Origin: Buxus sempervirens
Taxonomy: Eukaryota > Streptophyta > Magnoliopsida > Buxales > Buxaceae
Length of the DNA: 64,000 bases
Assembly (NCBI GenBank): GCA_947561395.2
Contig: OX387184.1
Location: 11,202,205-11,266,204, forward strand
Direction of reading: 5' to 3'
Part shown: positions 28,806 through 64,000 of the stretch, in pieces
Layout: each line of letters begins with the position of its first letter
Position numbering within the stretch: the stretch's first letter is position 1
Notes under the pieces: generated by a model
Seen by the model: the letters and a program-made list of their open reading frames with translations, nothing else
What the model was told of the DNA's origin: nothing
Databases searched by the model: none
Translations under genes and position numbers: made by a program

Positions 28806-28842
28806 GGGCGTTGGGGGCACAGATCTCCTGCATTTGTCATTA

Positions 28843-28952
28843 GACAAGAAATTCTTATAGTGTTGGAATATGCTATTCTTTATGGGGTTTTGTTTTACTT
28901 AATCCTGCGCTTTTTTGTGTCCAAGAACAAGAACGTCAGGACATTGGGAAAG
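28843..28952 (+). pseudogene. Decayed tandem repeat of the STR2 last-exon end
   Basis: The end of STR2 at about 28713-28818 (KILIMLGWAVLYRVLFYL, ILRFASKNKRT) recurs directly downstream as a diverged copy reading ILIVLEYAILYGVLFYL, then ILRFFVSKNKN. The repeat unit is about 130 bp. It lies after the STR2 stop codon, has no splice acceptor of its own and is probably only 3'-UTR sequence. Confidence 0.85.
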
Positions 28953-28965
28953 CGATTTGCATCTT

Positions 28966-29320
28966 TCCTACAAACACAAACATTGCTTTGTGAAATTGTG
29001 TCCTTTGATTATCTTCTCTCTATTTTTTTCCCCTTACTCTGTTCTTGTTATTTGGGTTACTGTTGATACATGAATGTGTAGAGTGGGATCAAGTGACTCT
29101 AGTAAGTGCCATTCTACAGAAAAAAAAAAAGGACTGTAGTAAGTGCCATGATATTTGCTTAAATCAACTGAATTTGTTATTCAAGGAAGATCATAAGAAA
29201 AACTTTGAAGTTTTGTTCCAACCTTCGGAAATATTTTACGAATCTGCTTGTCAAATTGTCAGGACTAAGTAACTTCTAATCCTCTACAAGGTTTGTTTGT
29301 TCTAATCTTTTCTATTTGTT
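28966..29320. other. STR2 3' flank up to the duplication border
   Basis: No coding signal was recognised. The sequence shared with 55351 onward starts at 29321. Confidence 0.5.
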
Positions 29321-30542
29321 ATTACAAAGGGGACACCTAATCTCTCTCTTTCTCCTTCAGCTATTCTCGTCCTAGCTTGTTGAAGAGCATGTTTCCAGTT
29401 TTTGGATCAAACAATATATTTCCTTCCAACCAAGTAAATACAGCCGCAGGCAAGTTCTCCGGATAAAAATCAAGCACCCAACATAGGAATCATGGGGCAG
29501 ATTCGGTGGGAGATCCTAAGCCCCATCACAAACAGGAGCTCTGATTTATGTAAAAATGAATGGTGCGTTTCAATTCCATGTGAACCCTTATTAGCTCCTT
29601 GTGATTCATTCAATAACCATTGAACCCAATTTGCAAGTTTTTTTTTTAATTATCTTCCACATCAATTCATAGGGGCTGGCTGCATATTATCAACTTACTA
29701 AGCTTTATATTAAGAAATAACTGGAAAAAGAAAACTGTTCTTCCATCATGTCTAAGTTTTAATAGACACCCTCTGCATGTAAAGAAGTGGCAAGGAAGTG
29801 GGATGGGGTGGATTTGGGATTGATGTGTCCTCACCTATTGGGAATAGTTGTACAATGCATGAAGTCTAACCCGAAAAAACTACATAAAATGAATTTGGCC
29901 TCTTTGAGAATTGGGAAACAGTGTCTAGAAGGAAGCTATAATCGCCGGTCACCACAAAGCAAACTGTGTTTTCACTGTGAAAGACACAATGGAGTAACGA
30001 AGTGCGAGGATTACCTGCTCACATCAATGAATATTAAGGTTATGGTTCTAAAAGTTCCTAAAAAGGATATTAGAATAGCTGAGATCATAGACACAGGCTG
30101 ATGACTCATGATAGATCAATCCTGAATTTCTAAAATTAAGACACATCTTAGGCATTGTAATTTTCCAAAACTCTGAAATCCAGTTTTTTTCCTCCTAATT
30201 AAATCTCATGAGGTTTTATGTGTCAATAACATGCCTTTGTTGTTGTTCCTGTCCACAGCAATCAATTTTTTCATGTCCATATTAGAGGCTAGTTGGTGTG
30301 GTGTTAATGATCCTAAAGATCTATGCATTAGCCGACAGTCTGCTGCTCCTAGTATGCATCTACATAAAAAACCTGGATTATTTTGGTACTTTTGTGGGAA
30401 TCACTGTTAGACATGAGCCTTGAATCTAAAGAAAAAGAAAAAAAGAAATTGATTACATTTATATGTAAGTTAATAAAGCAAAAGACTTGTTCATAATCCA
30501 AATCAAAAGGTGCTTACGAGAGTGCTTGATCTCTATAACAAT

Positions 30543-31632
30543 CTAGCTTGTAAAAAGAGAGGGGTTGGCTGATGCAGTACCAACTTGGACTTCAAGCAGC
30601 TCCAGGCGACGCTCCAATGTATCAAGTTTCTCATTCAGAGATGCCAATTTGCTCTTTGTTGTGGCCTCTGAAAATGGAATAGATAATAAGAACAAACTAA
30701 ACATATGAAATAAACACACAAAATCCTAGTCTTGGCATGTTAAAAAGATATAATGCCAGATGATTAAAAACGTTTTGATCGTGCAATTCAAAAGCAATTT
30801 TTTTAATCTACAAATAACAGACTACAACTACTTGGAAATTCAAAAAAATCCCAACATTATAGTTAGGGGAACTTCGGGAATGGCTCACCAAAAAGCGCAT
30901 TGCAAAAGAAATCCTCAACAATGCAAACATATATAATATTGTCAGTATCAACAAAGGTGTGTGAATCCATGAATTACAAAAAGGTCACATAATACTTGGG
31001 ATAAAGAAAATTTTCGGGGGAGATCTTGAGGGAAAATTTCTTGTCCGCGATGTTTGCTGGAAAAAATTTATAAGCGAAGCCTTTCTTCATAAAGAAAATA
31101 TCAATATACTTTTGTCTTAAAAGTTCTAAAACAAGGGAAATTTGAATTCATTCAAAATAAGAAATGTCTTAAAATTTAAGGAACTTTTGGATGATGATTT
31201 TGAAGAATCTGAAAAAAAAAATGAAATGCAGATCTGTTTAACAATCTTGTTAAAGATCATATTTTCCATTTCCTGAAATGCAAGAAATTCTTTTCAAAAC
31301 CATATAATACAACAGAAGCATAGAAAGGAATTAAATTAATTAAAAGCTTCATCCTAGATGAGTATGCCAAATTTTCTCAAATTACAAGCACATAATCAAC
31401 ATAAGAGAAATAACCACAATTAACAAAGAACCGAAACACGAAGTACGCAAAAAGGGAAAGAGATCCAAAGATAATGGGAGTTCAGGAAGATTTTCACACC
31501 AAACTGGATGAGAAATTCGAAGAGGCGACGAACATTGAGGGAGATGTGAGAGATGAACTCTCGATTCTCCCAATCTGCCTGAACTGCGATTCCCACGTTA
31601 ACCGCGTTTGTGATTCCTCCCGCTCTTGCCAT
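30543..31632 (-). CDS. BRK1: BRICK1 (HSPC300), SCAR/WAVE complex subunit, copy 1
   Basis: Two exons, 31632-31500 and 30667-30543, encode 85 residues, exactly the usual size. The start MARAGGITNAVNVGIAVQAD continues WENREFISHISLNVRRLFEF, then the coiled-coil half with SKLASLNEKLDTLERRLELL and the end GTASANPSLFTS. This is nearly identical to Arabidopsis BRICK1. The protein is the smallest member of the SCAR/WAVE complex and stabilises SCAR, which activates ARP2/3 to nucleate actin in growing cells. The intron splits the codon of Glu45. The gene is followed by a foldback MITE in its upstream region (31988-32300). A second copy with the same protein lies at 56555-57656. Confidence 0.96.
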
Positions 31633-31987
31633 TTCCTTATTCTCCTAGTTCTACCCGACAAAAATACAAACATCAACAGATGGAAACCTATAGAATGGAC
31701 TTTCTTTTTGGGTAGAAATTCGATATGGAAAAGGTAAACAAGAAACCCTAGAAACCAGTAGCAGAAAGAAATTGAAACAGATGGAGAATTCGAAGGGGAC
31801 ACCTACCTCGTTGCAGAGATCAGTTAATGTGAACTAACTGTTTCGGACATTTGGAGAGAGAGCTCAATCCGGTCCTGTCTTGGATCAACTGTGGATGACT
31901 GATCCGTTGACTCTTAACGGAAAAATACCCACAAAAATGAAGCTGAATAATATCTCTGTCCGAAAGTTTGTTTGTGCCCGTTAAATT

Positions 31988-32300
31988 GGGGGAAATTATT
32001 TTTAAGTAATACATTTTAAAATAATTTAGATTCAGTCGTATAATTCTTAATTATCGTAAACCATTGATACTTTTAAATAACTAAGAATCATGGTCATTTC
32101 CTTGATCAAGAGTTTCTTCCAAAATGGCCTCAAAAACTTTGAAAACCTTTCCACTTATTTTGTTACAAGTGACGGTATTTTGGAAAGAAATTATTTATGA
32201 AAGTAAAATGATATTAATTTTCAATTATTTTAAGAAAGTATTATTAATTCTTAATTATTAAGAATTGAGCATCTGAATCTGAATTATGTTATTTTTATTT
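31988..32300. mobile_element. Foldback MITE upstream of BRICK1 copy 1
   Basis: Left-arm phrases AAAATAATTTAGATTCAG and AATTCTTAATTAT return as near complements at the right end (TAAGAATTGAGCATCTGAAT, CTGAATTATGTT). The same family occurs at 45104-45463 and, through the duplication, at 60351-60665. The ends are approximate. Confidence 0.65.
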
Positions 32301-32396
32301 TTGTGCTTGTATGGTATTAATTTTTGTTTTTGTTTTTTCTATCCTTATCTAGTTAGGCGTGTTTGTTAATTAACCCACCAACCCCACCCAAAATAA

Positions 32397-32416
32397 ATAA
32401 ATAAATAAATAAACTT
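32397..32416. repeat. (AAAT)n microsatellite
   Basis: A short AAAT repeat that is longer here than at the matching place in unit 2 (about 60757-60770), so it changed after the duplication. Confidence 0.8.
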
Positions 32417-33676
32417 AAAGAAAAGAGGCTGAGAGTAAGACACCTAAATAGTACTTGATGCAAAATAATCTATTATATGTTTATAGCCGGAAAGGGGTCC
32501 TTGAAATGCACTTCAAAGCTTTAATAATTTTCAAAAAATTAATCTTATTATTTTATATTACAATTATTATTGTCAAATTTATTTTTGTCCTTTTAAATGT
32601 GTTGAATAAAAAGTAAATTTTATTCGAATTAATAAAAAAAAAAATCGTTGCTCAAATATGTTAAAATTGATGTCATAAGAAGTAGTTGACGGTCCATCTT
32701 CAATGCAAGAGGATGCATGAACTAAAAGCTATTAATTTTTTTCCGAAAATTTTGATCCCTAGAAAGAAGCATCCCCTTTTTTGTAACGTTTTTTTGTAAC
32801 GCTTTTTCTATCAAAAAATTTAGTCAACTTAAAGTATTGCTCATTAAGCTAGCAACCTTCTCGAAAACTTACAACACGTATCTAAGAACGAAGAAAACTT
32901 ACAACACGTACCAAGAACTGCCAAACTCATCCATGCGATGAAGTTCGATGCAAGTCCAATGTTCGGAAGCATTTTAACCAAGACTACGAACATTTTCCCT
33001 CTCCCCTTCTAATTTTTGCACCAATTCCCACACAGGGCCCCATATGGGGCAACGGGTTTCAACCCTGGTCGGTATAGGGGCTATAGGCTACAAACTCGTA
33101 GCTTCTCAACACGTGAATTCACCATTATACCTGTCAATTAAAAATATAATACCAGAAAGTCGTGTGAGATCCATTCTAAAAATATTAGAATGAATTCATT
33201 CTAAAAATAAAAAAAATTCATTCTAAAAATATTAGAGTAATATCAGCACTCACTTTACCTTTACTCACCCAAAGTCCAAAATTCGATATTTCAGACCCTG
33301 CTAAGATAAAAAGGGAATATGCCCGCCTTCCATCTTGCAATGCGTTTCAAGTGCTTTAAATGGATAGGCTAAGAGATTTTGATCTGCTAGTAATATGTGT
33401 AGTCATATCAGGAGAAAAGATTTAACTTAAAGGAGGGTATCTATCGCTTCTGGTTTAGTATTCTGATCTGATAAATGTGACAGACGTCGTCCAGTTGAAA
33501 GCCGACTATGCATTCGAGATAACTTATTCTAAATGTAAACTCCTCTTGTAAAAGGGCAAAGCATGTTGGGTCCTCAACATCCCCCAACTTGCGTGCACAT
33601 TAAACTAGTATGGGGCTGAAGAATCAAGCCATTTCTATCCACGATTCTGCTATGCAAATTTAAGGATAAATATACC

Positions 33677-36600
33677 TCACGCAGAGGCTGTGACTGGCAA
33701 TAGGCCATTGTGCCTGAGCAGTGCCTCGGGGGATGGTTCACGACCTCGGAATTCCACAAAAACCTGAAACAGAGAATACCAATACATTCCCAAAATTAAT
33801 CCATCAAATCCAGAAAGTAGGGTAATCCAAATGGGTACGGGCACTAGATTATATTAGAAACTGGTGAGCATATCCAGATTTGTATCATGGCTAACCTCAA
33901 GCGGTGGTTTGCCACCTCCAAGAGCAAGTACTGTTTCCCGGAACCTATGACCAGTTTCTTTGATGGCCTGTTGCAAAGATTTTATGAGTTGTCAATCATG
34001 CAAGGAGAAACATAAACACTGATTTATGAGTTGCCAGAGGTTGACAAGGAGTTTAACTAGCTGAAGTATAAACTGATGGATAACAACATCCAAGACTATC
34101 ATTTGAATCCAGCTACATTTTATCTCAATATGGAGTTTAATAAACAGCTAGCCCAGTGCATGAGCCCTCCTCCCCTCTCCCCCCCCCCCCCCCCGGCGTC
34201 AGGCTGAAATGTAGCAACCTAAGGCTCAACGAGTCGTTCAATCAATTAACTAAATTAAATAGTTGTGGAAGGCCACCTGTGGTATGATGCCCTTTGCAGA
34301 AACCCTAGGTAGGTCTTGCAGTTAAGGATTTTCAACCCACATAACTAGGGCTTTTACAGAAATATGAAATACACAATGAATAAAAAAGAATAGAGAGAAC
34401 AGCTGTACTCACGAAAGGAATTTTCTCCAAGTGGGAAACAATCTGATATATCACACTTACGTTGTATGTACAGATGTCATTTTATACATATCTAAATTGA
34501 CTAAGCAATGTGTATATCATCCTATATATAAAATACTGTCTAATCGGAACCAACTTTGTTAACTTGATTATTAATTATATACTGCGTTTTAACATATTCC
34601 TAATAAATTATTCAATAACATAAACTAAAGGCAAAATATACACAAATACATAAACACAGGAGACAAATCTTGCGAAAATTTTAAATTTGTTGTTCATTCA
34701 TTAGCTCTCGTGATTTTGATTCAACCATATGAACAGATTTTTGAGTTCAATTCAATTGACTCAAAATATGTAAAGAGTTCCTCTTCTGGTATTTTGAACA
34801 AGTTTTGGAACAGCAAGCTTGGAGTTGCTATAACAAAGGGGTGTTGTGTCTGTTTTTTTATTTTACCATAAGTTCAAAAGAAATTTGTGCTAATGTGAGG
34901 CCGCTCCTCCTAGAATATAATTGCAATCTCTTCATCACCATATATACACTATCTACTCTTTTAGACATGCCTGGAAATACCTGCGTACAAATTTTCAAAG
35001 CAAACCGATCAGTAGACATCAATCATAACATCCATAAAAGGGATTAATCCAGCACCATGATACCAGCTCCCTTCATTTTTCCAACATCCAGAATTGGTTA
35101 CGACACAACACAACATGGGTATGGGTCTGGGATAAGTTTCCAATAAGTTGAATCCTTGCTGCACTCATTTCAGATTTGACAGAATGAGTATTCTCTTCCA
35201 CAATTTTATTACATTATCATATTTAGACATTTTTATTATGACATTTTGAATATATAATTGATTCCTTTTTTACTTGAAATTAGATATGAATTATGAATTT
35301 TTATATATAGTTAGCTTTTGGCCCTTCTACAGGAGGTCCACCATAGCATATGATCACTTTTTAGAACTCATTAAAATTAACATAATGCTCGACCTTTTTA
35401 TTTTTTGGTGAGGAGAATCAGGTGGAACTCACAGATCTCAACTCAGTTAATGGCAAACTTGTAAACAACTGAAGTTTGTTAGGAATTGGCAACCTAGTAA
35501 ATAATTCAACTTTCACCTTGCTGTGGCGAACTTATTAGTTCAAAGTTAATTCTGCAGTGGTAAACCTGAAAATAATTTAGGTCTATTTTCTGAGGAGGCA
35601 AACCCATAATAATTTAAAAACTTCAAATAGAATTCATTTTAGTACCTACAAACCAAATTCCATTTTTGTGTATTTTAACCAAATAAAACAAAACAAAAAC
35701 CTAGTAATAATATTGTGGAATGAATTTAAGTAACTAATTCTTGGGTTGAGTTTATAATCTAGAATGAATGCCAAATAAACCCTGCATATATAAACAAGCG
35801 GCTTTACATCAAACTATTAACTTTATTCCAAAGCTCTCAAGTCATGATTTCAAGTATTCAAATTAAGCATATCATATGGGGGTAAAATGGACTCAACACC
35901 TATAGACAAACCACCTCAACACCTTTAGACAAACCCACACCCAAAACCAGTAACAATGCCATGCAACATAAATCTAATGTTAATAATTGGAGAAAAAGGC
36001 TATCATGTTGATAATTGGAGCAAAAAGCTATCTGAAATATTTAATGGTCAATGGAGACTGGCTAATTGAATCTATGAAATTGTCAATCCTGGATCACAAG
36101 CTAATATTTTATTTTTTTAGAAAAGTGATGAAGGCTAATATTGTATTCTCTTGGACCCTAGCTCATCCAATACTGAAGCTCATGAACTAACATGGATACT
36201 GCAGCCTAGGTTTGGGCTTCTATGTTTCTTTTTTTCTTTGCTCTTAATAGAGTTCCGTTTCTGGCCAAAGGAAAGGAAGGAAAAAACAAAATAAAATGAA
36301 AAATGCAAAGACAATGAATTATTACACACCCATGGTCAACTCAAAAGAAAAAGCAAATAATAGTGTACTTAAAATGGCTATGTGATTAATTTGACATTCA
36401 GGTTTCCAATGATACCTTTTCATTGTCCAACCCAGCATCCTCAAATGCAGAGAAAGCATCAGCAGACAACACTTCCGCCCACTGCAAAATATTAGAATAT
36501 TTAGCTCAGAGCAAATACAAAGAGGTAAGGAAAAGCAATTCAGGCAATAGTCACACTAAATGATGCATAAGATGATCTTCAGCCAGGCCCCAAAATCTAT

Positions 36601-39600
36601 TTATATGATGCTCACACCAAATGGCCTAGAGAAGAATCAAGCTTTTGACCCAGTTTGATAATCAACAGACCTGCACGTATGCATTGATAGCTCTTGCATG
36701 TAGTTTCCACCATCTATGAAACTCACATGGCATGGATAATGAAAGTCAGAATCAAGGAAGGTTCATGTAATACCACTCTTATTCCAGATGGCTCCCTATC
36801 AATATGATGGCTTTACCCAAATGAGACTCAAAATAAAAATCAAGGCAATATTCAGATGTTCCATGTAAGTTTAAACAACTATTAAGGAACTTAATTATTT
36901 GTCATAAACATCACAATGGTGCAATACAATGTCACAAATACAATGGGAATTATAATGATGACAATGGGCAGCCCAAAGAGAAAACAAAACAATCAGAGAG
37001 ACAAAAAAAAAAGCCACATAAAAAGATTCACAGAACTACCTTGTAACTGTAGTAACCAGCAGCATATCCACCTGACATTCAGTAATAAAAATACAAGTCA
37101 GAGCTAAAATTAATCAGATCAAGCAGTACACTACTTATGCTAACAAAAAACAAAAAAGAAGTTGATTTTCTGAGCATACCTGCAAATATATGGCTGAAGC
37201 TACAGAGGAACCTGTCCTCAGGCAGCGGGGGAATCAGTTGAGTTTTTTCACTTACTCTTCGATCAACATCATAGATGGATTCTGAACCGCCTGGAACATA
37301 CTTTGTATGCATCTCCAAATCCAGACTTGCGCATCGTATCTACAAATTTATATATGATGGAAAACAATAAAAGAAAGAATCATAAATCCAGAGTGAAGAA
37401 TTATCTGTGGTCCTGCAATGGTGTACTTTTTTTTTTGATAAGTAATGATATTTGATTAAGAAAGAAGTGATACATGATAAGTACAAATATATAAGAGTAT
37501 CCTCCTCTCCATCCCAAACGGGGAAGAGGGAGAACCAAAAACTATAATCTGTATCCCATACCATCATGATATGCACACTACCCAAAAAAACAAAAACTTA
37601 TATGGTAATCACATGGAATTTCCCCCAAAAAATAAAAAAATAGCTATACCAAAATTTGCCAGGAATTGCCAGGAAAGCCGGATTCTGGTAATTCAATATG
37701 ATGGTGCATAACAGAAACATCTCAGCTAGAACAAAATTTGAAAAATACTACCTGCATTTAAGAAAATATCAACAGCTCTTGAAAGGTTACAAAAATTGCC
37801 TAAAGTTCTCAGCATTAGTTAGAAGAAGGTTTCTGATGCTTGCCAAAGTCAAAAGAGAGTTCAAATTATATCTTAAAAATGCCGGCCACTGATAAAAGCT
37901 TAGGTTGATAGAAAAAAATTGTTACAACCCCTAGTGTAGGAGTGCAAAAGACCTAGCAGTGTTTTCTTTAAGGCATCCACTGGCACCAGTGATGAAACAG
38001 CTACAGCTTTGTGAGTATATTATAATTCTATTGCATTAAAAATATGAAGTCATATATCCCTTTTTTTTGTTATAAATATCAGATATGAGTTCATATTGCA
38101 TGAAGACCATAAACTGGCGATCCTGCTAAAGCAAGGACCTGATAGGGATGGACGGGCAACAAGCTTAACCTTCACAAATAGCCCTACTTATATAAGAAAC
38201 ATGACCTTGGCAAGATCGCGAAGTCATCCCAGTACAAACCATTCACAGACCCCCAAACAAAAGAGAAAACAGAAATAAAGAAAGAAAAGAAGAGAAGATG
38301 AAGAGCCAATAAAGAATAGGAACTATCGTTGTGTCAAACAGTCTAATCCTCGAAACAACTTGATAAAAAAAACGAAACAAGAAGTTAGAATCTGCATCTG
38401 CCTCACAGGAAATCATACCAAATCAGAAAACCTAAACTCATCATTGAATCTAACAGCCCCCTTTGCGAGCCATGACGAACTGCCTAAAACCAACCCAAAT
38501 ATTTTATGTTCTCCCAAAAGAATCACTTCTCTTTCTTGTATCTTCCATTTCCAAGCACTTTTTACATTCCAATAACAATTATTCCCATTCTATAACAACC
38601 CTTTAGAAATAATTCATGGCTCCCAAAGGGGGCAGTTAGATTCAATGACATTAAATGTGTAAAGGATCCAATGTAGGATCCAAGCCCTTCAATATTAGAA
38701 AAGATCGACTGTATGCAAAAAAAATTATGAAATAATCACAACTTATATAGTCAAGCAATGGATAAAATAATCTTTTCAATTTATTGTTCTTTCTCTCTGC
38801 GTTTTTTTTTTTTTTTTTTTTTTGGGTATTAAAGAGTACGTTAAAAAATTTTTTTTGAAGCTGTACACTAGCTGTACATGTACAGATAATAAGGTAAACA
38901 TACAAACAATGAAACAAACAAACAAACAAAAAAGCCACAGAATTATTGTACAAATATAGACAATTACAGTTATTTGCCTCATTCTAAAGAAAGAGACAAA
39001 CATTGAAATGCATGGTCTCTGAAACCAGTCACGATCCCTTAGCTTAAAAATTCCTCATACATCTTTAATTCCAGACTGACCAACAGAGCAAAAGGTTACA
39101 AACTTGCATTCCAGATTAAATTTAATACATAAGCCACACCAAAGTTGCTTTGCATTGCCATGTCATGCTACCCATTGCTGGCCAAAAGGCCAGGTAAGCA
39201 AGGTAGCTTCAGGTTAGCAGTGACTTAAAACCCTCAGGAATCCCTTAGATCCTGGACCTGAACTTTTGTCAATAAATTCTAAGTTGAGTTGGCATGATGG
39301 TATTTCAAGTCATAACAGTTTATTCTTGTCATTCTTACAATGCTGGTGTACTTTTTAGAATTTTGCTATTAGTTTTTAAATAACTAATGAGAAAATTGTA
39401 TTAAAAAGAAAACAATCTATACAAGAGATGTGGGCCACAATAAATACATTACTTAATTAGCCACATTTATACAAGATGCACAGATTACCCATAATCATGA
39501 CAGTTTATTCTAGTCATTCTTACAATGCTGGTGTACTTTTTAGAATTTTGCTATTAGTTTTTAAATAACTAATGAGAAAATTGTATTAAAAAGAAAACAA

Positions 39601-42600
39601 TCTACACAAGAGATGTGGGCCACAATAAAGACATTACTTAATTAGCCACATTTATACAAGATGCACACATTACCCATAATCATGACATCTAAGAATAAAT
39701 GCACGTTGCTATATGAGCTTTATCAAAATTTCAGAATTTTCTACTTTTTCATGTTCCATAAAGACTTGTATATATTACTTGATTCTTTTCAACAAGAATC
39801 CATGCTTCTGTTGCATCAATGAATTCCAACACTGAATTAGAGATTCTGATGGCTTATTAAAAAATGGAATACCAACCTATATTATACCCCAAAAGAAAAG
39901 ATAAACAGCATCTTTCATACAATCAAAGCCCAAGGTTGATGCCATAACAATTGTGTAGGGAGGCATAGCTGATGGACAATTAAAAGCAAAAACATAGGAA
40001 AAGGGTCCATTCCATTTACACATGAAACCATCCTGAAAACTTTTCAGCAATGAAACTAACCTGACGAAGGCTCAAGGAACCAGCACGGAAAGTCCTTGCT
40101 GCAAGGAGCTTCAAATATACTTCTTCAGGAAGACTTTCTCCTGTCTCATAGTGTTTTGCAATGCTCATCAAAGTGTCCCTACAGAATTTTTCAAGCACAC
40201 AGAATGGTAAGGTGGAATTTGACTATAAGATGCCACTGATGTGTAGATGGTAAAGAAACATAAAACTGAATCAATTGAATGAGACAGGAGGAAATAATAA
40301 TATGTTAATAAAAATTAATGATTAAGCTAAATTGTTTCTATTTACAATGACAGTTTGTCGGTGCCAAAAGATAGGGTTACCCGCTCTAAAGTTGCATCCT
40401 ATACAAACATTGAGGAATTTCACAATAGAAACGAGTAGGAGGTTCTAAAAACTAAGATATCATGCAAAATTTCTAGAAATGAATCTAGATTTAACTCCAT
40501 GCTACTTCAAAATAATAATTAAACTTCCTTAGATTTTACTTAATGGTGTACATACATATGCATGTATACACGTGCAGACTGTGAGTGCATGCAAACACTT
40601 ACATTAGTCAAATGCATGTGATGTATGAAATGTTTATGACCAAATTACTTTTAATAGTACCTTGATGCATTTTAAAGAAAATTCTTCAAGTCATACTTGA
40701 TTTCAGTTAACAAGGTAACTTCATAACCAGAAGGGTGGTCAACTCCCGTGGCAAATTGTTCAGCTATACTTGTATCCATGAGTTGCAAGTTCCGAAATAT
40801 CAGTTTAGATAAAACTAACGAAATGGAAAACTGAATTCTTGGAAAAAAAATCCAGCTAGAAATTTCAAAAGTTAGAAGAAATTTATAAAAGGGTAAATTC
40901 ACAAAGGCAAATGCTCTACTGACCCAGCAATAAATTAACTCCCCTCCAGAGTGGTAAATTGAACTAGCCTATATTGGCACCCAAAGTTGAAAGTGATGGA
41001 ACTTCTTGATTTATATACTTTTTATACTATATAATCCTTAGATAAATTATAACTTTTGTTTCTCTTTAAGTATATTTAGGTGAGTGGTTATCTTTTTCTC
41101 TTTCCATTGATAATTTTAAGAGGAACGCTAATCATCACCTCTCTGACTCACGAACCTGTATTCTACCTGAAACAGAACTGTCATCCCTTATTTATGCATG
41201 TGCCACTGCCATCTTGTCTACAGAACTATTGGCACAGGTTTAATGATTATTCTCAATCATGAGCATTGATTATCTAGACATCCATAGAGCTTATTAAGGA
41301 ATCATCCAGCCATATCTATGAATGTGTTTGGGTTGCACTTATCTAGTTAAGTGTTTGATTTCTCTAAAATAACATTAGCGGTCAAAATGGAACGAAATCA
41401 TGATGAAGGATTGGATATAGGAATAAACAATAAATCTTTAAAATTGTACTTCCATAGCATTAACTCAAAGTATCAAACTTTAAAAGACATTTCAAACATC
41501 AGTGAAAAAATATTATTGCAGTATTTAATGAAAACCAACTCACAGGATTTTAAAATATTCCTTAGTTACAAGGTGGTAGAAGTTGTATTTCCACAATTAA
41601 TAATATATCTTGTTCAAGAGTTAGAGAATCATGAAAGCTGAAATCCTTCGATGTAAAAGAGAAGAGAATGTACAAATACAAAGCTGAGGGGAAGTAGCCT
41701 ATTAGACCCAGAAGAAAGTAAAAAACCACTAAAGAAAAATCACAAATCTCCTCTATAGGGATCTATAGGGATACTAAGCAGGAGGACGAAAACTTGCTTG
41801 GCTGTACCTTTGGCAAGACTACTGGCTAGGTAATTCACAGACCATGAGATACAAGAGAACGAGATAATCAACCCACATATCAAAATGTGAGCCAATCAAA
41901 AAAGATGAACGAGCCTCTAAGAACACGCCTTAGGGTTTGCTATGCCTAAGATAACAAGCAAAGGATCACCCTCGAATTTCTACAGCATCAAAATGCAAGG
42001 CCTCCCTGAAGTCCATAATAAGAGCCAAGATTTACACTTGATAACAAGGCATTCCCCAATACCTCCCAAAAAGAAACAAAGATAGTTCACAAATGATCTC
42101 TAATCCTCCAATCATTCAGCAACTCAGAGCCCCAAGTGAACAACCATAAAAGTCCAACATTGTCACCCTCTCAATAGGAGCATTCCAAAACTCCAGCTGC
42201 CGGTCCAAAGTTGATGAAGACAAGCAATTGTAAATTTGTAAGTCACCCCCTCAAAATATCGCAACAAATATAACCTACAACACTGAAGAGGAAAACACCC
42301 AATATCTTCCAAATACATCACTACCTCTATAATGACCTAACTCTTGACCCTAACTTTAACAAGGATCCTTAACATTCCTAGGATTTCACAAGGACCACGG
42401 GATGGCTTGGATAGGCAGTGATAGCAGTATAGAATCTTTCCCATATTCCCTCCCTAGTACTGCGAACATCAAACTGAGGAAACAACAAACTATGAACTCT
42501 GGAAATAATGTATCTATCCCAACTAATTCTATGAAAGAGCACCAGACCAATCTAACAATCTCACAATGCAGAAAAACAAGGGGCCCACCAACTCATTCTA

Positions 42601-52783: not shown

Positions 52784-53814
52784 TTCCCTTTATTCAGCCC
52801 AAAAGTGGATCATGACAACGGATCAGTGAGGCCTTTGATTTGATTTGCCTTTCTAGCCTCGAATTCAAAATGACGATAGTACAGCTCAAATTACTCTTCC
52901 TCTGAAGGAAACCAGAAGATTTTTGAATGGCTTCATCATATATATGTGGTAAAAACTAAATTCCCCATTACGAAGAAAAATTACTTTCCTATGGATAAGA
53001 AGTTACGTTTAATGTTCCGTTAAGCACTGAATATTTTTTGTGATACATGCATAATGCATACACACATATATTCATACATACATACATTAATACATACATA
53101 TATGACATTTAAAAAAAGCGCAATTTACATAAGAATACAAACCAGATTGAGTTTTCTTTTTCCTTTTTATTTTTATTTTTGTTATACTGGTAAAGTTGGT
53201 TAAATTGATATTTTTCATGGAACCGATTCGCTAATCATGTTCATTTCCCTTTTATGGGAGATCAATTTGCAAATAGTAAAACCAAAGGCCACTTAGAAAC
53301 TGTAGGCAACACCAGTTGAATGGTGTGAGTGAGCAGACTGCAGGTTATGACTATTTTCAGCACTTGAAGGCAAAACATAAACATGATACACAAACAAAAC
53401 AGTTATGGTTGAAGCATCTGCAAAAGCTTTTTCCAAACAGAAAGTATCCCTCCTTTTAGCATGAACAGCCTTTTCTTTATACAGAATCTCTAGGAATAAG
53501 CTTTTACCAGGGAGTAAAATTTTGACCCTTGTACTAGATTCATTTGTACAGCTAAAAGTACAATTGGGGAAAGAAATGTGTTTACCTTTCTAAGGTTCAT
53601 GGAAGGGTCAAACCCCTACAGGTGACTCCCAATCCATAATATTAATAAATTCTCACAAGAGAAATAAGATTGAGATGCGAGTTCCATGGAAAAATTATCA
53701 GAGTCGAAGATTCAGAAGATAAATAATCAGAACAAAGTTTCACGAATCAAATCCCCAGTCAGGGAGAGAGATAAGCAAAGATGCATAGCCTTTTCAAAGG
53801 CGAAGGTAACTGCC
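52784..53814. other. Spacer upstream of the oligopeptidase gene
   Basis: No gene recognised. The first part should hold the oligopeptidase promoter, and the part near 53600-53814 the 3' flank of the CorA fragment. A short CATA/ACAT-rich run lies at about 53045-53105. Confidence 0.4.
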
Positions 53815-55350
53815 TCATTCCTGAAGTCCACCTCCAAGAGTTCTTCTTAGGAATGACTTCCGGTTTAGAGACCAACTTCTCCTCATTGCCCTCTGTTCCT
53901 TCCATGCAGCTATTTTTTGCATACAGAGCTGGAAAAGTAAAGCAAAGCAGTACCAGCAGTAGCATTGCAACACATAGCAACATGACATTGCGGAATCCGC
54001 TTTTAAAGTGGGATCATCCAGCCCTGTCCATGGAACTCCTCCAACATTCATTCCAAATACTGTTAAGAACATTCCCACGAAGATTCTGAGGTTATTTGCT
54101 TTTTAATGCGCAAGTATAGTATAATGCAATCAGGTTAAACTAATTTCAGGGAAAATTACTTGACAAGTATATTTACCTCCAGTGATGATGGATAAAGGAA
54201 GGAATATGATTGATAAGAATGATAGATAGTAAAGTTTCCTGTTTATTTGCTCAGCCTGCCAGCTATCAAGGCCAGCCTGGATCGCTGTAACACGATTGGC
54301 TATAAATCCAACATTTTCTTTTAGCCTCCTAAGTCGTCCAATTAACTCTTCAAGAGAGATGATATCTTCACTGGCGAACCAGCTTTTTGTGGTGCATTTT
54401 TCTTTAACACGTGGAAACACTTGCTCACCGTGGGCAATCACCTGGTTTAAAGCAGAACTATGTTATTTTGATTATGCTCAAACAAATCTCATCAAAGCAT
54501 CTTCGAAGATCTCTTTGACAAAAAATGAACTAAATTGAATATATTAAGCATCTGCTCTATCCCATCCCTTTTGAGTGCATGAGGAAGAGCTAACATGGAT
54601 ACTCCAAGAAGAGACACCCAGACATCAGAAATTATGATCATATAATTGGTCAATCATTGGTGGATCTAACGACCCCATGGCTCTTGGCAAGCCATCGCAC
54701 TGAATTCATCTCCATAAGCTTGGTATGATTGGTTTTCCCAAGTGAGATTAAAGAAGGTGAAGTGATGAATAAGTGAAAAAATATCGTGCAAATGAGAAGG
54801 GACACATAAATGCAAATTTTAGGAGGATTTGGAATGGTGAGGGAAAAACCCAAGAAGCATCATGCTACAAAAATTAAGATGCATTTTAGGGAATCTTCTA
54901 TCATTAAAATTAAGAGGGAAAAAAAGGCTAACTTTGAGAAACTACCTGCAGAAGGCGCTGCAAATTAAGATGCATTTTAGGGAATCTTCTGTCATCCAGC
55001 ATTTGTTTCTTCAAAACAAAGCCCCCTGCAGTAATATGAAAAGAGATTAGACTACAAAAAGTTCAACAAAGTAAAGTATGCAACTTCATATGGGTAACAA
55101 GATTAAGTTCCAAAACATATAGTAGCGCAAAATTAAAATTTTATTAGAAAAAGAAGCAAACGTTTTTACGAAAAGAAATTTATAATATTGGTATGTAGCC
55201 AATTTTGGAGATAATCAGTTAAGAAAGCTACCACCAGATTCTTCATGTTTTCTTTCTTTATTTCCTCTGTAAATCAGTTGGACAAACCTAAATTTTATTT
55301 TTTGTTGGGCACATACCATAAGACCAGCATGCCTGATCTTCAAGAAAGTG
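53815..55350 (-). pseudogene. CorA-like Mg transporter, 3' fragment cut by the tandem duplication
   Basis: Four minus-strand exons remain: a partial 55350-55317 (HFLEDQACWSYG), 55025-54946 (GFVLKKQMLDDRRFPKMHLN), 54441-54177 (VIAHGEQVFP ... SWQAEQINRKLYYLSFLS) and 54059-53815. The product resembles the plant CorA-like family of Arabidopsis At1g29820/At1g29830, with the GMN selectivity motif (VFGMNVGGVPWTG) between two membrane segments. The exon at 55350 is broken at the joint with unit 2, so the N-terminal half and promoter are missing. In the last exon two single-base changes in A runs shift the frame within the second membrane segment (about 54010) and back (about 53925); read as is, the segment is scrambled. 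I infer a dead remnant. Confidence 0.85.
54871..54904. repeat. Partial copy of the CorA exon
   Basis: AAATTAAGATGCATTTTAGG plus the next 14 bases repeat the exon sequence at 54961-54994 with one or two differences. A local duplication of 34 bp placed it in the neighbouring intron. Confidence 0.85.
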
Positions 55351-56554
55351 ATTACAAAGGGGACACCTAATCTCTCTCTTTCTCCTTCAGCTATTCTTGT
55401 CCTAGCTTGTTGAAGAGCATGTTTCCAGTTTTTGGATCAAACAATATATTTCCTTCCAACCAAGTAAATACAGCCGCAGGCAAGTTCTCCGGATAAAAAT
55501 CAAGCACCCAACATAGGAATCATGGGGCAGATTCGGTGGGAGATCCTAAGCCCCATCACAAACAGGGGCTCTGATTTATGTGAACATGAATGGTGGGTTT
55601 CAATTCCATGTGAACCCTTATTAGCTCCTTATGATTCATTCAATAACCATTGAACCCAATTTGCAGGTTTTTTTTAATTATCTTCCACATCAATTCATAG
55701 GGGTTGGCTCCATATTATCAACTTACTAAGCTTTATATTAAGAAATAACTGGAAAAAAAAACTGTTCTTCCATCATGTCTAAGTTTTAATAGACATCCTC
55801 TGCATGTAAAGAAGTGGCAAGGAAGTGGGATGGGGTGGATTTGGGATCCATGTGTCCTCACCTATTGGGAATAGTTGTACAATGCATGTAGTCTAACCCA
55901 AAAAAACTACATAAAATGAATTTGGCCTCTTTTGAGAATTGGGAAACAGTGTCTAGAAGGAAGCTATAATCACCGGTCACCACAAAGCAAACTGTGTTTT
56001 CACTGTGAAAGACACAATGGAGTAACGAAGTGTGAGGATTACCTGCTCACATCAATGAATATTAAGGTTATGGTTCTAAAAGTTCCTAAAAAAGATATTA
56101 GAATAGCTGAGATCATAGACACAGGCTGATGACTCATGGTAGATCAATCCTGAATTTCTAAAATTAATTCACATCTTAGGCATTGTAATTCTCCAAAACT
56201 CTGAAATCCAGTTTTTTCCTCCTAATTAAATCTCATGAGGTTTTATGTGTCAATAACATGCCTTTGTTGTTGTTCCTGTCCACAGCAATCCATTTTTCAT
56301 GTCCATATTAGAGGCCAGTTGGTGTGGTGTTAATGATCCTAAAGATCTATGCATTAGCCGACAGTCTGCTGCTCCTAGTATGCATCTACATAAAAAACCT
56401 GGATTATTTTGGTACTTTTGTGGGAATCACTGTTAGACATGAGCCTTGAATCTAAAGAAATTGATTACATTTATATGTAAGTTAATAAAGCAAAAGACTT
56501 GTTCATAATCCAAATCAAAAGGTGCTTACGAGGGTGCTTTATCTCTACAACAAT

Positions 56555-57656
56555 CTAGCTTGTAAAAAGAGAGGGGTTGGCTGATGCAGTACCCACTTGG
56601 ACTTCAAGCAACTCCAGGCGACGCTCCAATGTATCAAGTTTCTCATTCAGAGATGCCAATTTGCTCTTTGTTGTGGCCTCTGAAAATGGAATAGATAATA
56701 AGAACAAACTAAACATATGAAATAAACACACAAAATCCTAGTCCTGGCATGTTAAAAATATATAATGCCAGTGGATTAAAAACATTTTGATCGTGCAATT
56801 CAAAAGCGATTTTTTTAATCTACAAATAACAGACTACAACTACTAGGAAATTCAAAAAAATTCCAACCACAATTCCAACATTATAGTTAGGGGAACTTCG
56901 GGAATGGCTCACGTAAAAGCGCATTGCAAAAGAAATCCTCAACAACGCAAACATATATAATATTGTCGGTATCAACAAAGGTGTGTGAATCCATGAATTA
57001 CAAAAAAGTCACATAATACTTGGGATAAAGAAAATTTTCGGGGGAGATCTTGAGGGAAAATTTCTTGTCTGCGATGTTTGCTGGAAAAAATTTATAAGCG
57101 AAGCCTTTCTTCATAAAGAAAATATCAATATACTTTTGTCTTAAAAGTTCTAAAACAAGGGAAATTTGAATTCATTCAAAATAAGAAATGTCTTAAAATT
57201 TAAGGAACTTTTGGATGATGATTTTGAAGAATCTGAAAAAAAAAATGAAATGCAGATCTGTTTAACAATCTTGTTAAAGATCATATTTTCCATTTCCTGA
57301 AATGCAAGAAATTCTTTTCAAAACCATATAATACAACAGAAGCATAGAAAGGAATTAAATTAATTAAAAGCTTCATCCTAGATGAGTATGCCAAATTTTC
57401 TCAAATTACAAGCACATAATCAACATAAGAGAAATAACCACAATTAACAAAGAACCGAAACACGAAGTACGCAAAAAGGGAAAGAGATCCAAAGATAATG
57501 GGAGTTCAGGAAGATTTTCACACCAAACTGGATGAGAAATTCGAAGAGGCGACGAACATTGAGGGAGATGTGAGAGATGAACTCTCGATTCTCCCAATCT
57601 GCCTGAACTGCGATTCCCACGTTAACCGCGTTTGTGATTCCTCCCGCTCTTGCCAT
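56555..57656 (-). CDS. BRK1: BRICK1 (HSPC300), SCAR/WAVE complex subunit, copy 2
   Basis: Two exons, 57656-57524 and 56679-56555, with the same splice sites and the same 85-residue protein as copy 1. By eye the coding sequences differ only at silent positions in exon 2 (for example in the codons of the LEVQVGT stretch), while the intron has base changes and small indels. This suggests the second copy is still under purifying selection or is very young. The upstream region differs from copy 1 by the Harbinger-like element that starts 287 bp before the ATG. Confidence 0.95.
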
Positions 57657-57942
57657 TTCCTTATTCTCCTAGTTCTACCCGACAAAAATACAAACATCAA
57701 CAGATGGAAACCTATAGAATGGACTTTTTTTTTGGGTAGAAATTCGATATGGAAAAGGTAAACAAGAAACCCTAGTAACCAGTAGCAGAAAGAAATTGAA
57801 ACAGATGGAGAATTCGAAGGGGACACCTACCTCGTTGCAGAGATCAGTTAATGTGAACTAACTGTTTCGGACATTTGGAGAGAGAGAGCTCACTCCGGTC
57901 CTGTCTTGGATCAACTGTGGATGACTGATCCGTTGACTCTTA

Positions 57943-60276
57943 GGCTCTGTTTGTTTCACCGGAAAACTAGGAAAAGAAAATATTTTTCGGAATTTTAAAA
58001 TTTTCTAAGATGTTTGTTTAAGGGGAAAATGAAAATTAAGGGAAAATATTTTCTGCAGGAAAATCAGCGGAAAATAACTTCCGCTATGCTGAATTTGAGC
58101 GGAATTTATTTTCCGCCGGGGCATTTCGAACTCTCGTGTTTCTAAATTTTTTTCTCTCCTCGACTTGGACTCTCTTCTTCCTCCTCCGAGGGCACGACGA
58201 ACGACTGCGACAAAGATGGGAGCCCCGTGTTGGTAGCTCAGGAGCCTCGTGTTTTCTTCCTCCTCCGAGAGCACGACGAAATCAGAGCCTCCCTTTTCTC
58301 CCTCCTTCTTATAGCTCTTCCTGCACATCGCTCGCTCAATCACATGAAATCGGATTCTTTGTTCATCAATCAAGAGGACATACCTTTTGTTTATCAGGTT
58401 GGCATGACTTCCATCTTGTCTCCACTGCAGTCTTATTCTCTTCAAATTATGCCCTATCGTGATATCTTTTTAGAGAAGGCGAGATTGAAGGCCGCTTTGG
58501 ATGACGTGATTCGCCAAAGATCAGATTCTACGTTTATCTGAGCTCTGCAAGTTGAATGGTTTTTAAATAGCCTATCTAATTTACTTATTATATACGAGCC
58601 AATGGTGGTCTCAAGTGCAGTCGTGTTCATCTCACGCGGAGTGTGAAGTAGGGATTGGTAACTTTGTCTTTGAAATTGAGTTTTTAAACCAGTAAGATTT
58701 CTTAAGCTCTATTCTTCCGAAGACAGAAATGAATATAGGAGGGAAAGTTTATTTCCCAGAAACGAAACATTGCAGCAATTTAATTGGATTGAATCTTGGT
58801 TAGGGACCCCTTCATGTGCTCCACTGTGGTTTCATGGTTTGGTTTGGAATTGAGATATTATAGTCTTTGTCCTTTGTTCATAGAAAATGCAGGGCAATTG
58901 ATGCCACAAATTAAAGAAATGGAGTGGATTCCCAAGTCGAAAAAGGTTGGACGTGTTGAACTAGGGAAGGTCTGTTTTTCAAAATTAATAGAGTTTGGTA
59001 ATTGAAGTGTTTGATAATTAATTGGGATGATTGATTAGTGGTCTTTCTTACCATTCCAATATTGAATTTGGTTAAGGGCGATTGGTGCCAAATCAGTAGA
59101 AATCTGCTGGCCTGATACACATCTCATTACCCTGCACAGAAAAGTCAGTCATACATGAAATTAGGAATCTGTGTTCAAAAACTTGAAATTTAATTGTTAC
59201 CATTCCATTTATGCAAGGTATTGCCCCAAGGGAATTCAAGCTAGTATGTTGCTAGACCCATTACAATTTTAATTTTTGGTGTACTCTTGTTAGTGATCAT
59301 TTCTAACCGTTCTTGGCGTTATGCAGACGTCTGGCAATTCGGCCAGTTGAAGGGATTCAGCTTGAGGTAACAAGTGTGCCCGACAAAGCATGCACACCAA
59401 CTGCTTGTAGAAATGCCTGAACCAATTTTATTTTACAGTTTTTGATTTTACTGAACATTCCCTTTTTGCTTTTTAGTGGCAAAGTGTGAACCAAGCAATT
59501 TCGCTTTACCTAAGCAAAATCAATTAGATTGCTTTTCTTACTTTTTGAGTAATTTTTGAGAAGCAATACCAAACCAACCTTAGTTTTGCTTTTGAGTCTC
59601 TCCTGCGTCCTCAATCTGGAGTTTTCACTGATTTGTTGTTGATTGCGCTGCAGGTTATAAATCAAAAAGACTCTCATTAGAGTGAAAAACTAGTAATATG
59701 GTGAGGAGGACTAATATGTCGAGGAGTACTAGCATGTCGAGGTGCACCCAATCTGTCGTTACTGTCGAGGAGCTCCCAATCTGTCGTTGGAGTTGCTAAT
59801 ATGCCGAGGAGTACTAATAGAACAAGGATATTTTGTCTGTGACTATGCGATTAGGTGTTCTCTGTCCAATGAATGATGTAGATTATTTGCAGTTTATTAG
59901 TGTTTATTTCGATAAAGACTATCTCTTTTGTTGAGAAGAATCAACATGTAATTATCTAGCAATTTCTTTTACTTGTATTGGTTCACTTTGAAGGTTCTTA
60001 TGCTACCACCACCTTTTAAACAAGAGGGTAAAAATGCAATGAAAGTAAATTATTTAAAATTTGCATGGAAAGTAATTGCTCAAGCTACTTTAATTCCTAG
60101 GGTAAGTATTTTTAGTTGCATTTGTATAAGAAAAGAAAAAGAATAAAATTCTATAACATTTTTCATGTTACATCCAAACACTTGGAAAAAATAAAGAAGG
60201 AAAATTTTTTCCTGTAAAATTTTCTTCCGGAAAATATTTCCACCAGAAAATATTTTCCGGTGAAACAAACAGAGCC
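57943..60276. mobile_element. Harbinger-like non-autonomous element, 2,334 bp, absent from unit 1
   Basis: Perfect terminal inverted repeats begin GGCTCTGTTTGTTTCACC and run about 24 bp. A TTA target duplication flanks it (57940-57942 and 60277-60279); unit 1 has a single TTA at 31914-31916, the empty site. Inner ends are rich in GGAAAATATTTTCC motifs. The middle (58130-59900) is not obviously transposon: it has a CT-rich leader-like stretch, exon-like pieces with splice-like borders such as CAG/ACGTCTGG at 59327 and a short repeated phrase GTCGAGGAGTACTA at 59715-59815. No transposase was recognised. Confidence 0.92.
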
Positions 60277-60350
60277 TTAACGGAAAAATACCCACAAAAA
60301 TGAAGCTGAATAATATCTCTGTCCGAAAGTTTGTTTGTGCCCGTTAAATT

Positions 60351-60665
60351 GGGGGAAATTATTTTTAAGTAATACATTTTAAAATAATTTAGATTCAGTC
60401 ATATAATTCTTAATTATCGTAAACCATTGATACTTTTAAATAACTAAGAATCATGGTCATTTCCTTGATCAAGAGTTTCTTCCAAAATGGCCTCAAAAAC
60501 TTTGAAAACCTTTCCACTTATTTTGTTACAAGTGAGGGTATTTTGGAAATAAATTATTTATGAAAGTAAAATGATATTAATTTTCAATTATTTTAAGAAA
60601 GTATTATTAATTCTTAATTACTAAGAATTGAGCATCTGAATCTGAATTATGTTATTTTTATTTTT
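60351..60665. mobile_element. Foldback MITE upstream of BRICK1 copy 2
   Basis: The unit 2 counterpart of the element at 31988-32300, present before the duplication. Now separated from BRICK1 by the Harbinger-like insertion. Confidence 0.65.
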
Positions 60666-61570
60666 GTGCTTGTATGGTATTAATTTTTGTTTTTGTTTTT
60701 CCTATCCTTATCTAGTTAGGCGTCTTTGTTAATTAACCCACCAACCCCACCCAAAATAAATAAATAAACTTAAAGAAAAGAGGCTGAGAGTAAGACACCT
60801 AAATAGTACTTGATGCAAAATAATCTATTATATGTTTATAGCCGAAAAGGGATCCTTGAAATGCACTTCAAGTTTTAATAATTTTCAAAAAATTAATCTG
60901 ATTATTTTATATTACAATTATTATTGTCAAAGTTATTTTTGTCCTTTTAAATGTGTTGAATAAAAAGTAAATTTATTCGAATTAATAATAAAAAATCGTG
61001 GCTCAAATATGAGAAAATTGATATCATAGGAAGGAGCTCACGGTCCATATTCATTGCAAGTGGACGCATGAACTAAAAGCTATTAATTTTTTTCTGAAAA
61101 TTTTGATCCCTAGAAAGAAGCATCCCCTTTTTTGTAACGATTTTTTAATCACAAAAACTTTTAGTTTACTTTTTTCGAAAAGGTTTTTTAAACTGTCAAA
61201 AAGGGGAATTTCACTTGATCCTTAATTGTTTACACAAACCACTCTATCGTATTATTACCGGATGCACATACATACCATATGTATATAAAAAATTAGTTAT
61301 TCGTAATTATTGAGGGGATATAATAGAAATAGACATAGCGAGAGCTGTCTTCTAAAATTTCTTTTATTAATATTCTAAAGAACTACACATAAAAGGTTAA
61401 GAGACATTGAAATTAACCTTTTGAATTTTCCTTTTTTTTTATAGGACAATGAGAAATCAAATTTTAGTAAGAATCTCGCAACTTATGTTTATATAATAAG
61501 TCAGTTTACCTGCACTCACTATCAGCACTCAGTTTACCTGCACTCACCCAAAGTACAAAATTCGATATTT

Positions 61571-61760
61571 GCGCGCACCACGACAAATCCCCAAAGGCTT
61601 GTGCAATCCCCCTGTCCCACACAAATCAAATAATTGCCAGACCAAAGGCCCTAGGGGTAGCCCCAAAGAATTGATAGCACCTAAGAGGTTTAAACCGGAG
61701 ACCTTGGAGAGAGCACACCCCCTGGCCCCAAGCCTTGACCACTAGCAACCAGGGGTTCCA
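61571..61760 (-). mobile_element. SINE, family A, present only in unit 2
   Basis: On the minus strand it has an A-box-like CTAGTGGTCAAGGC, a B-box-like CGGTTTAAACCTC and the same body as the SINE at 24886-25074 (CTCCAAGGTCT, TATCAATTCTTTGGGGCTAC). The matching place in unit 1 (about 33290-33325) lacks it. The 3' part differs from the 24886 copy, so they are separate subfamilies. Confidence 0.7.
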
Positions 61761-62119
61761 GCCTTCCATCTTGCAATGCGTTACAAGTGCTTTAAATGGA
61801 TAGGCCAAGAGATTTTGATCTGCCAGTAATATGTCAAATGTGCAGTCATATCAGGAGAAAAGATTTAACTTAAAGGAGGGTACCTATCGCTTCTGGTTTA
61901 GTATTCTGCTCTGATAAATGTGACAGACGTCATCCAGTTGAAAGCCGACTATGCATTCGAGATAACTTATTCTAAATGTAAACTGCTCTTGTAAAAGGGC
62001 AAAGCATGTTGGGTCCTCAACATCCCCCAACTTGCGTGCACATTAAACTAGTATGGGGCTGAAGAATCAAGCCATTTCTATCCACGATTCTGCTATGCAA
62101 ATTTAAGGATAAATATACC

Positions 62120-62368
62120 TCACGCAGAGGCTGTGACTGGCAATAGGCCATTGTGCCTGAGCAGTGCCTCGGGGGATGGTTCACGACCTCGGAATTCCAC
62201 AAAAACCTGAAACAGAGAATACCAACACATTCCCAAAATTAATACTAGATTATATTAGAAACTGGTGAGCATTTCCAGATTTGTATCATGGCTAACCTCA
62301 AGCGGTGGTTTGCCACCTCCAAGAGCAAGTACTGTTTCCCGGAACCTATGACCAGTTTCTTTGATGGC
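62120..62368 (-). CDS. OOP: Organellar oligopeptidase copy 2, last two exons; rest beyond the window
   Basis: Exons 62368-62297 and 62206-62120 match the last two exons of the complete gene (24 and 28 residues plus stop), with the same splice sites and the same end [14 protein letters not shown]. They encode [20 protein letters not shown] near the C terminus. Upstream exons should lie to the right of 64000 if the duplication is complete. Whether this copy is functional cannot be told from the part seen. Confidence 0.85.
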
Positions 62369-62578
62369 CTGTTGCAAAGATTTTATGAGTTCTCAATCAT
62401 GCAAGGAGAAACATCAACACTGATTTATGAGTTGCCAGAGGTTGACAAGGAGTTTAACTAGCTGAAGTATAAACTGATGGATAACAACATCCAAGACTAT
62501 CATTTGAAGAAGGTATTTCGGTCCAGCTACATTTTATCTCAATATGGAGTTTAATAAACAGCTAACCCAGTGCATGAG

Positions 62579-62714
62579 GCTTCCCCCCGGCGAAATGCAT
62601 GGGGTCTGATGTACGCAGCCTTATCCGCAAGCGGAGAGGCTGTTTCCTATGACTCAAACCCATGACCTTCACGCTGCAATGTAGCAACCTAACCATTGCG
62701 CCAACGGTCAACGA
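62579..62714 (-). mobile_element. Au SINE
   Basis: On the minus strand it reads CGTTGGCGCAATGGTTAGGT (A box), CATGGGTTTGAGTCATAGG (B box), then AACAGCCTCTCCGCTTGCGG and GGCTGCGTACAT, the diagnostic sequence of the plant Au SINE family. It lies in the intron of oligopeptidase copy 2. Unit 1 keeps only its two edges. Confidence 0.9.
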
Positions 62715-64000
62715 GTCGTTCAATCAATTAACTGAATTAAATAGTAGTGGAAGGCCACGTGTGGTATGATGCCATTTGCAGAAACCCTGGGTAGGTCTTG
62801 CAGTTAAGGATTTTCAATCCACATAACTAGGGCTTTTACAGAAATATGAAATACACAATGAATAAAAAAGAATATAGAGAACAGCTGTACTCACAAAGGA
62901 ATTTTCTTCAAGTGGGAAACAATCTGATACATCACACTTAAGTTGTATGTACAGATGTCATTTTATACATATCTAAATTAACCAAGCAATGTGTATATCA
63001 TCCTATATATAAAATACAGTCTAATCGGAACCAACTTTGTTAATTTGATTATTAATTATATACTACGTTTTAACATATTACTAATAAATTATTCAATAAC
63101 ATAAACTAAAGGTAAAATATACACAAATACATAAACACAGGAGACAAATCTTACGAAAATTTTAAATTTGTTGTTCATTCATTAGCTCTCAATATTTCGA
63201 TTCAACCATATGAACAGATTTTTGAGTTCAATTCAATTGACTAAAAATATGTAGAGAGTTCCTCTTCTGGTATTTTGAACAAGTTTTGGAACAGCAAGCT
63301 TGGAGTTGCTATAACAAAGGGTTGTTGTGTCTGTTTTTCGATTTTACCATAAGTTCAAAAGAAATTTGTGCTAATGTTAGGCCGCTCCTCCTAGAAAATA
63401 AATTCAATCTCTTCATCACCGTATATACACTATCTACTCTTTTAGACATGCCTGGAAATACCTGAGTACAAATTTTCCAAGCAAACCGATCATTAGACAT
63501 CAATCATAACATCCATAAAAGGGATTAATCCAGCACCATGATACCAGCTCCCTTCAATTTTCCCAGCATCCAGAATTGGATACGACACAACACAACATGG
63601 GTATGGGTCTGGGATAAGTTTCCAATAAGTTGAATCTTTGCTGCACTCATTTCAGACTTGACAAAATGAGTATTCTCTTCCACAATTTGATTACATTATC
63701 ATATTTAGACATTTTTATTATGACATTTTGAATATATAATTGCTTCCTTTTTTACTTGAAATTAGATATGAATTATGAATTTGTATATATAGTTAGCTTT
63801 TGGCTCTTCTACAGGAGGTCCACCATAGCATATGATCACTTTTTAGAACTCATTAAAATTAACATAATGCTCGACCTTTTTATTTTTTGGTGAGGAGAAT
63901 CAGGTGGAACTCACAGATCTCAACTCAGTTAATGGCAAACTTGTAAACTGCTGAAGTTTGTTAGGAATTGGCAACCTAGTAAATAATTCAACTATCACTT

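Follow-up and report, generated by a model that had tools for sequence, protein, structure and literature searches.

How did a stretch of chromosome 3 of the boxwood Buxus sempervirens come to carry BRICK1 and an organellar-type oligopeptidase gene twice, together with one complete and one headless CorA-like gene, and what has become of the copies since? The stretch analyzed here, referred to as the window, comprises 64,000 nt of the drBuxSemp1 assembly (OX387184.1:11202205-11266204); positions above 64000 continue its numbering to the right (position on this contig, C4, minus 11202204). Our analysis of the assembled sequence suggests that the arrangement very probably goes back to a single direct tandem duplication of 26,030 bp, formed by a microhomology-type mechanism and followed by unequal decay of the copies. 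The segment would have been copied once, in a repair or replication process with next to no requirement for homology.

The first-pass annotation of this DNA had described a block at 29321 that starts again at 55351 in the same orientation, and these exact coordinates are borne out by self-comparison and by the base-level ends (Table 1). In detail, self-comparison of the window places the start of the direct repeat at 29318 and 55348 on the same strand, and when 50 kb of right flank is joined to the window the right copy remains collinear with the left one out to 85889. The two copies are thus adjacent, on the same strand and in the same order, as in a direct tandem segmental duplication; the junction at which the end of one unit meets the start of the next is new and each outer flank is single, as is also characteristic of such an event. 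Copy 2 is the larger one mainly through its own insertions. The copies differ at 882 of the 25405 aligned sites, which excludes chance resemblance.

The genome was searched as 676,531,615 bases in 247 contigs. A 1.5-kb query across the joint matched three places, namely the joint itself and the two outer ends of the duplicated region, where copy 1 starts and copy 2 ends, so that neither a third copy nor a copy on another contig was found by this query (3/3 matches at this locus). The gene parts of the unit match at two places only; 40 of the 44 matches obtained with them are relatives or pieces of a long interspersed nuclear element (LINE) in intron 7 of the oligopeptidase gene, which is present in both copies and is therefore older than the duplication.

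At the breaks, the dinucleotide AT is common to the left break (29321-29322), the joint (55351-55352) and the right break (85888-85889), with neither filler nor gap. Short shared bases at a joint that lacks long flanking repeats point weakly to microhomology, because two shared bases can arise by chance. Several dispersed repeats do exist in the region, as would be needed if unequal recombination between flanking repeats (non-allelic homologous recombination) had produced the duplication; however, the left and right break sequences share only these 2 bp and no repeat pair spanning both breaks was seen in the self-comparison of the window and right flank. That explanation, which is contradicted by the joint, was rejected as extremely improbable. 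On the left the break falls between BRICK1 and an ABC transporter gene, on the right within intron 1 of the CorA-like gene. The earlier proposal that the joint falls inside a CorA exon does not hold, since the gene model places the break at 85889 in this intron; an open frame that crosses the joint (55215-55436) is likewise intronic according to the model.

Gene models were generated by custom spliced protein-to-DNA alignment, and all introns are of the GT-AG type. Together with copy order and strand they support a single direct tandem duplication containing BRICK1, the oligopeptidase and a part of CorA, as had been proposed from the window alone. The prediction that the remainder of a second oligopeptidase gene and a full CorA gene would lie to the right of 64000 proved correct, CorA and the second oligopeptidase both being complete; of the latter, 15 exons, all but the last two, are located at 64895-80913, beyond the right edge of the window. 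The event would have left full genes for BRICK1 and the organellar-type oligopeptidase in both copies, and for CorA a full gene on the right with a headless piece on the left.

The right-hand CorA gene matches PF01544 (E 1.1e-27) and encodes FGMN in exon 4, GMN being a motif relevant to CorA proteins. The left piece has neither a complete N-terminal domain nor an intact frame, as exon 1 is absent and two frameshifts and an early stop are present. Compared with copy 2, its exon 4 has lost one nucleotide and gained another about 84 nt away, and seven residues ahead of the normal end there is a TGA. An alternative frame stays open between the two shifts, and the piece is therefore headless and altered, not cut short early. 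After the duplication this piece took on the frameshifts and the stop. A six-frame search of the assembly with CorA gave 13 matches, of which 8 are at the locus and 5, weak and short, on another contig (C12). The headless exons follow directly downstream of the right BRICK1 gene and share its strand. As the intron of BRICK1 is in phase 1, like intron 1 of CorA, a transcript skipping BRICK1 exon 2 could join the CorA exons in frame. A chimeric gene that fuses the BRICK1 N-terminus to CorA exons 2 and 3 plus the beginning of exon 4 nevertheless seems very improbable.

Both oligopeptidase genes contain 16 introns. The start codon was chosen by us, and the frame continues open upstream of it; the coordinates of copy 1 end at model residue 777, the stop codon following two codons beyond. 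Peptidase_M3 (PF01432) was found in two exon frames, and the HEXXH zinc motif reads HEFGH in both copies. Model residues 75-776 align with Arabidopsis 4ka8 and residues 78-776 with 4put, an N-terminal extension of about 75 residues preceding the match to 4ka8, which bears on the import into mitochondria and chloroplasts expected of an OOP. In a six-frame search of the assembly all 32 matches fell at this locus, so that no other close copy came to light.

The coding sequences of the two oligopeptidases differ at 35 of 2331 nucleotides and at 16 of 777 residues, with 0.0089 nonsynonymous (dN) and 0.0377 synonymous (dS) substitutions per site. As the searches of the boxwood genome gave no paralogue that is close enough, the Arabidopsis PDB chains were used as outgroup, and a replacement was polarized where both chains agree with one copy, which left 11 of the 16 differing residues usable (residues 249, 375, 415 and 523 match neither copy state in Arabidopsis, and residue 60 is outside the PDB alignment). 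The left copy changed at ten of these sites (100, 136, 305, 381, 511, 512, 554, 644, 647 and 676) and the right copy at one (404; two-sided binomial P 0.012). Among the replacements on the left is DE to VA in GAWMDEV, at residues kept by both Arabidopsis chains. This distribution suggests that constraint on the left oligopeptidase became weaker after the duplication.

A real duplication could also have been retained by selection, either because extra dosage was favored or because the left oligopeptidase took on a new function, instead of drifting to decay. Indeed, both frames are intact after 3% divergence, with HEFGH and all introns in order, the overall dN and dS values point the same way, and the BRICK1 protein is unchanged. 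However, the replacements cluster in the left oligopeptidase at residues conserved in Arabidopsis, including the change in GAWMDEV, which fits relaxed constraint, and BRICK1 is too short and lies partly in an identical tract, so that it does not discriminate. We therefore consider retention by selection rather unlikely. Accordingly, the suggestion of the first-pass annotation that the gain in copy number would be a dosage event is not supported for the oligopeptidase, of which the left copy took 10 of the 11 polarizable replacements, but may hold for BRICK1.

The two BRICK1 genes encode identical proteins of 85 residues and show 2 silent differences in 255 nt, too few for a test. The protein matches the solved chains 3pp5_A (E 5e-15) and 3p8c_E (E 1.1e-12) of BRICK1, a subunit of the WAVE complex; Pfam gave four weak hits and no family above the cut-off. 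No other copy of BRICK1 was found by six-frame protein search of the assembly (4/4 matches at this locus), a search that, like those with CorA and the oligopeptidase, scores only the best candidates and that distant relatives may escape.

The non-coding divergence between the copies was determined after exclusion of coding sequence, the poorly aligned stretch 32780-33330 and all sites lying 3 columns or less from a gap, and amounts to 655 of 21324 sites (3.1%, K 0.031), the copies having diverged since the event. At plant substitution rates of 2-7 x 10^-9 per site per year this would correspond, very roughly, to an age of 2-8 million years.

According to an excerpt of the assembly report (PMC12976612), the drBuxSemp1 assembly was produced from HiFi reads (~33x) with hifiasm and purge_dups, Hi-C scaffolding and manual curation, during which five haplotypic duplications were taken out, and the mean heterozygosity of the sequenced plant is 1.52%. 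Heterozygosity and curated duplications, together with a divergence that is patchy along the unit as between alleles, would be in line with an assembly artefact in which two alleles of one locus were placed end to end. Scaffold joins, however, would leave N, and the joint is gapless and shares 2 bp; a stretch of 154 kb, of which 124 kb run rightward from window base 1 and 30 kb lie to its left, is free of N. In addition, the frameshifts and the early stop fall in exactly that CorA piece which is expected to be headless under a real duplication, and the replacements are nearly all on one oligopeptidase, which would be a strange pattern for allelic forms of a functional gene. Finally, the mean non-coding divergence is about twice the heterozygosity given in the same excerpt (PMC12976612), which also means that the duplication, called young in the first-pass annotation, is not a very young one. 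An artefact is thus quite improbable.

Several observations weigh against a single duplication followed by simple decay, the chief one being that the divergence is uneven. Its variance/mean ratio is 4.4 in 42 windows of 500 non-coding sites and still 2.9 in 39 windows after two low tracts are dropped; a ratio of about 1 would be expected if one event had been followed by no further exchange, and mistakenly joined alleles could look uneven. Local misalignment is present within some of the high-divergence windows. Uniform divergence had been considered as proof of a single event and was dropped when the test came out uneven. Furthermore, the ten-to-one count of replacements uses Arabidopsis as its single outgroup, and the whole case is built on the assembled sequence of one haplotype.

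Under the preferred reading of one duplication and subsequent unequal decay, at least one tract would have been homogenized later: the near-identical tract at 43096 probably reflects gene conversion between the copies, and the identical tract at 31047 may be due to gene conversion or to constraint. Small tandem duplications with units 97% alike are found in copy 1 at 39310-39687 (185-bp unit) and 42863-43032 (83-bp unit), both being single in copy 2; the latter adjoins the near-identical tract.

After the duplication the right copy gained transposon insertions, each a short distance upstream of a full gene, one at BRICK1 and one at the oligopeptidase. The one near BRICK1 has inverted ends that are perfect over 24 bp, a TTA target duplication and an empty site in copy 1, and two near-full relatives occur elsewhere in the genome (94% and 93% alike); from its 3-bp target duplication we take it to be PIF/Harbinger-like. 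The insertion near the oligopeptidase consists of a short repeat with many relatives and an adjoining element at 81320-83346 (L006:7320-9346) with two arms of some 950 bp in inverted orientation that are 98% alike. The sequence ATTCAAAAT flanks this element on both sides and is single in copy 1, and from this 9-bp target duplication the element is presumably Mutator-like. Both arms are also found at three places in the genome (contigs C6, C8 and C15) with 97-98% identity. Judged from its sequence, the element could make a long hairpin RNA. The better-conserved oligopeptidase is the right one, that is, the copy with the upstream insertions, and these need therefore not have silenced it.

Left of the unit, the frames of the ABC transporter gene (ABC_tran, ABC2_membrane) extend over 26378-29066 on the plus strand, with a tandem repeat of about 100 bp near the end of the gene (28717-28815 and 28849-28948, 82% alike in the self-comparison). 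A full-length U5 spliceosomal RNA gene is located at 25106-25224 on the minus strand (score 78.8 bits, cut-off 40) and is the sole Rfam match at the gathering threshold within the window. An HSP70 gene follows at 17587-20120 on the minus strand, its frame 18710-19345 matching PF00012 (E 3.3e-98).

Table 1. Positions of the duplicated unit, its genes, insertions and tracts (window numbering, continued to the right of 64000)
Feature	Position	Strand	Description	Source
Copy 1 (left) of unit	29321..55350		26,030 bp	self-comparison, base-level ends
Copy 2 (right) of unit	55351..85889		30,539 bp; first 8,650 bp (55351..64000) inside window
Joint	55351..55352		2-bp microhomology AT	printed break sequences, read by eye
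BRICK1 copy 1	30546..31632	-	coding exons 31632-31500, 30667-30546; 85 aa	gene model
BRICK1 copy 2	56558..57656	-	protein same as copy 1	gene model
Oligopeptidase (organellar oligopeptidase (OOP) type, M3 family) copy 1	33686..52720	-	17 coding exons, no stop or frameshift	gene model
Oligopeptidase copy 2	62129..80913	-	17 coding exons, no stop or frameshift	gene model
Oligopeptidase copy 2, last two coding exons	62368-62297, 62206-62129	-	inside window
CorA fragment (left)	53797..55025	-	exons 2-4 without exon 1 and promoter	gene model
Full CorA-like gene	84326..88841	-	four coding exons; intron 1 at 85563-88090	gene model
Copy-2-only insertion	57943..60276		about 285 bp upstream of BRICK1 start codon
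Copy-2-only insertion	81052-83346		starts about 140 bp upstream of oligopeptidase start
LINE relative	47881..49850	-	oligopeptidase intron 7, both copies	genome search
Near-identical tract	43096..44194		1 difference in 1098 aligned sites, ~34 expected
Identical tract	31047..31703		0 differences in 657 aligned sites, ~20 expected; covers BRICK1 exon 1

The mechanism and the kind of event are ordinary. The locus offers a fully anatomized tandem duplication of two genes for which no other close copy was found in the assembly; the doubling of BRICK1 deserves attention as this gene is rarely found in two copies, and the oligopeptidase pair lends itself to a natural experiment on the time that a redundant housekeeping protease needs to escape constraint. 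Among the matches listed for Buxus and tandem duplication in the literature, none concerns this locus by title, no search having been aimed at an earlier report.

As far as an excerpt of PMC4227049 goes, almost every land plant genome sequenced up to 2014 has BRK1 as a single-copy gene. The BRK1 homeologues of Physcomitrium described there resemble the situation in Buxus in that one plant has two BRICK1 genes; the moss pair, however, arose by polyploidy, whereas the Buxus pair arose by tandem duplication and encodes identical proteins. Both Buxus oligopeptidases share the M3 alignment over residues 75-776 and HEFGH with the plant OOP and cytosolic oligopeptidase (4ka7/4ka8 and 4put), as compared in the part of PMC9291397 available to us, and differ from that comparison in that Buxus has two tandem copies and no further close copy found in its assembly. 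With microhomology/microsatellite-induced replication in yeast, as outlined in an excerpt of PMC2518615, the boxwood locus has in common a direct tandem copy of tens of kb, a joint sharing a few bases and no long flanking repeat. The yeast mechanism is known from selected events, whereas that in Buxus is deduced from an old plant joint after about 3% divergence; judged from the sequence of this joint, formation by a microhomology-type mechanism as in the yeast excerpt (PMC2518615) is most likely.

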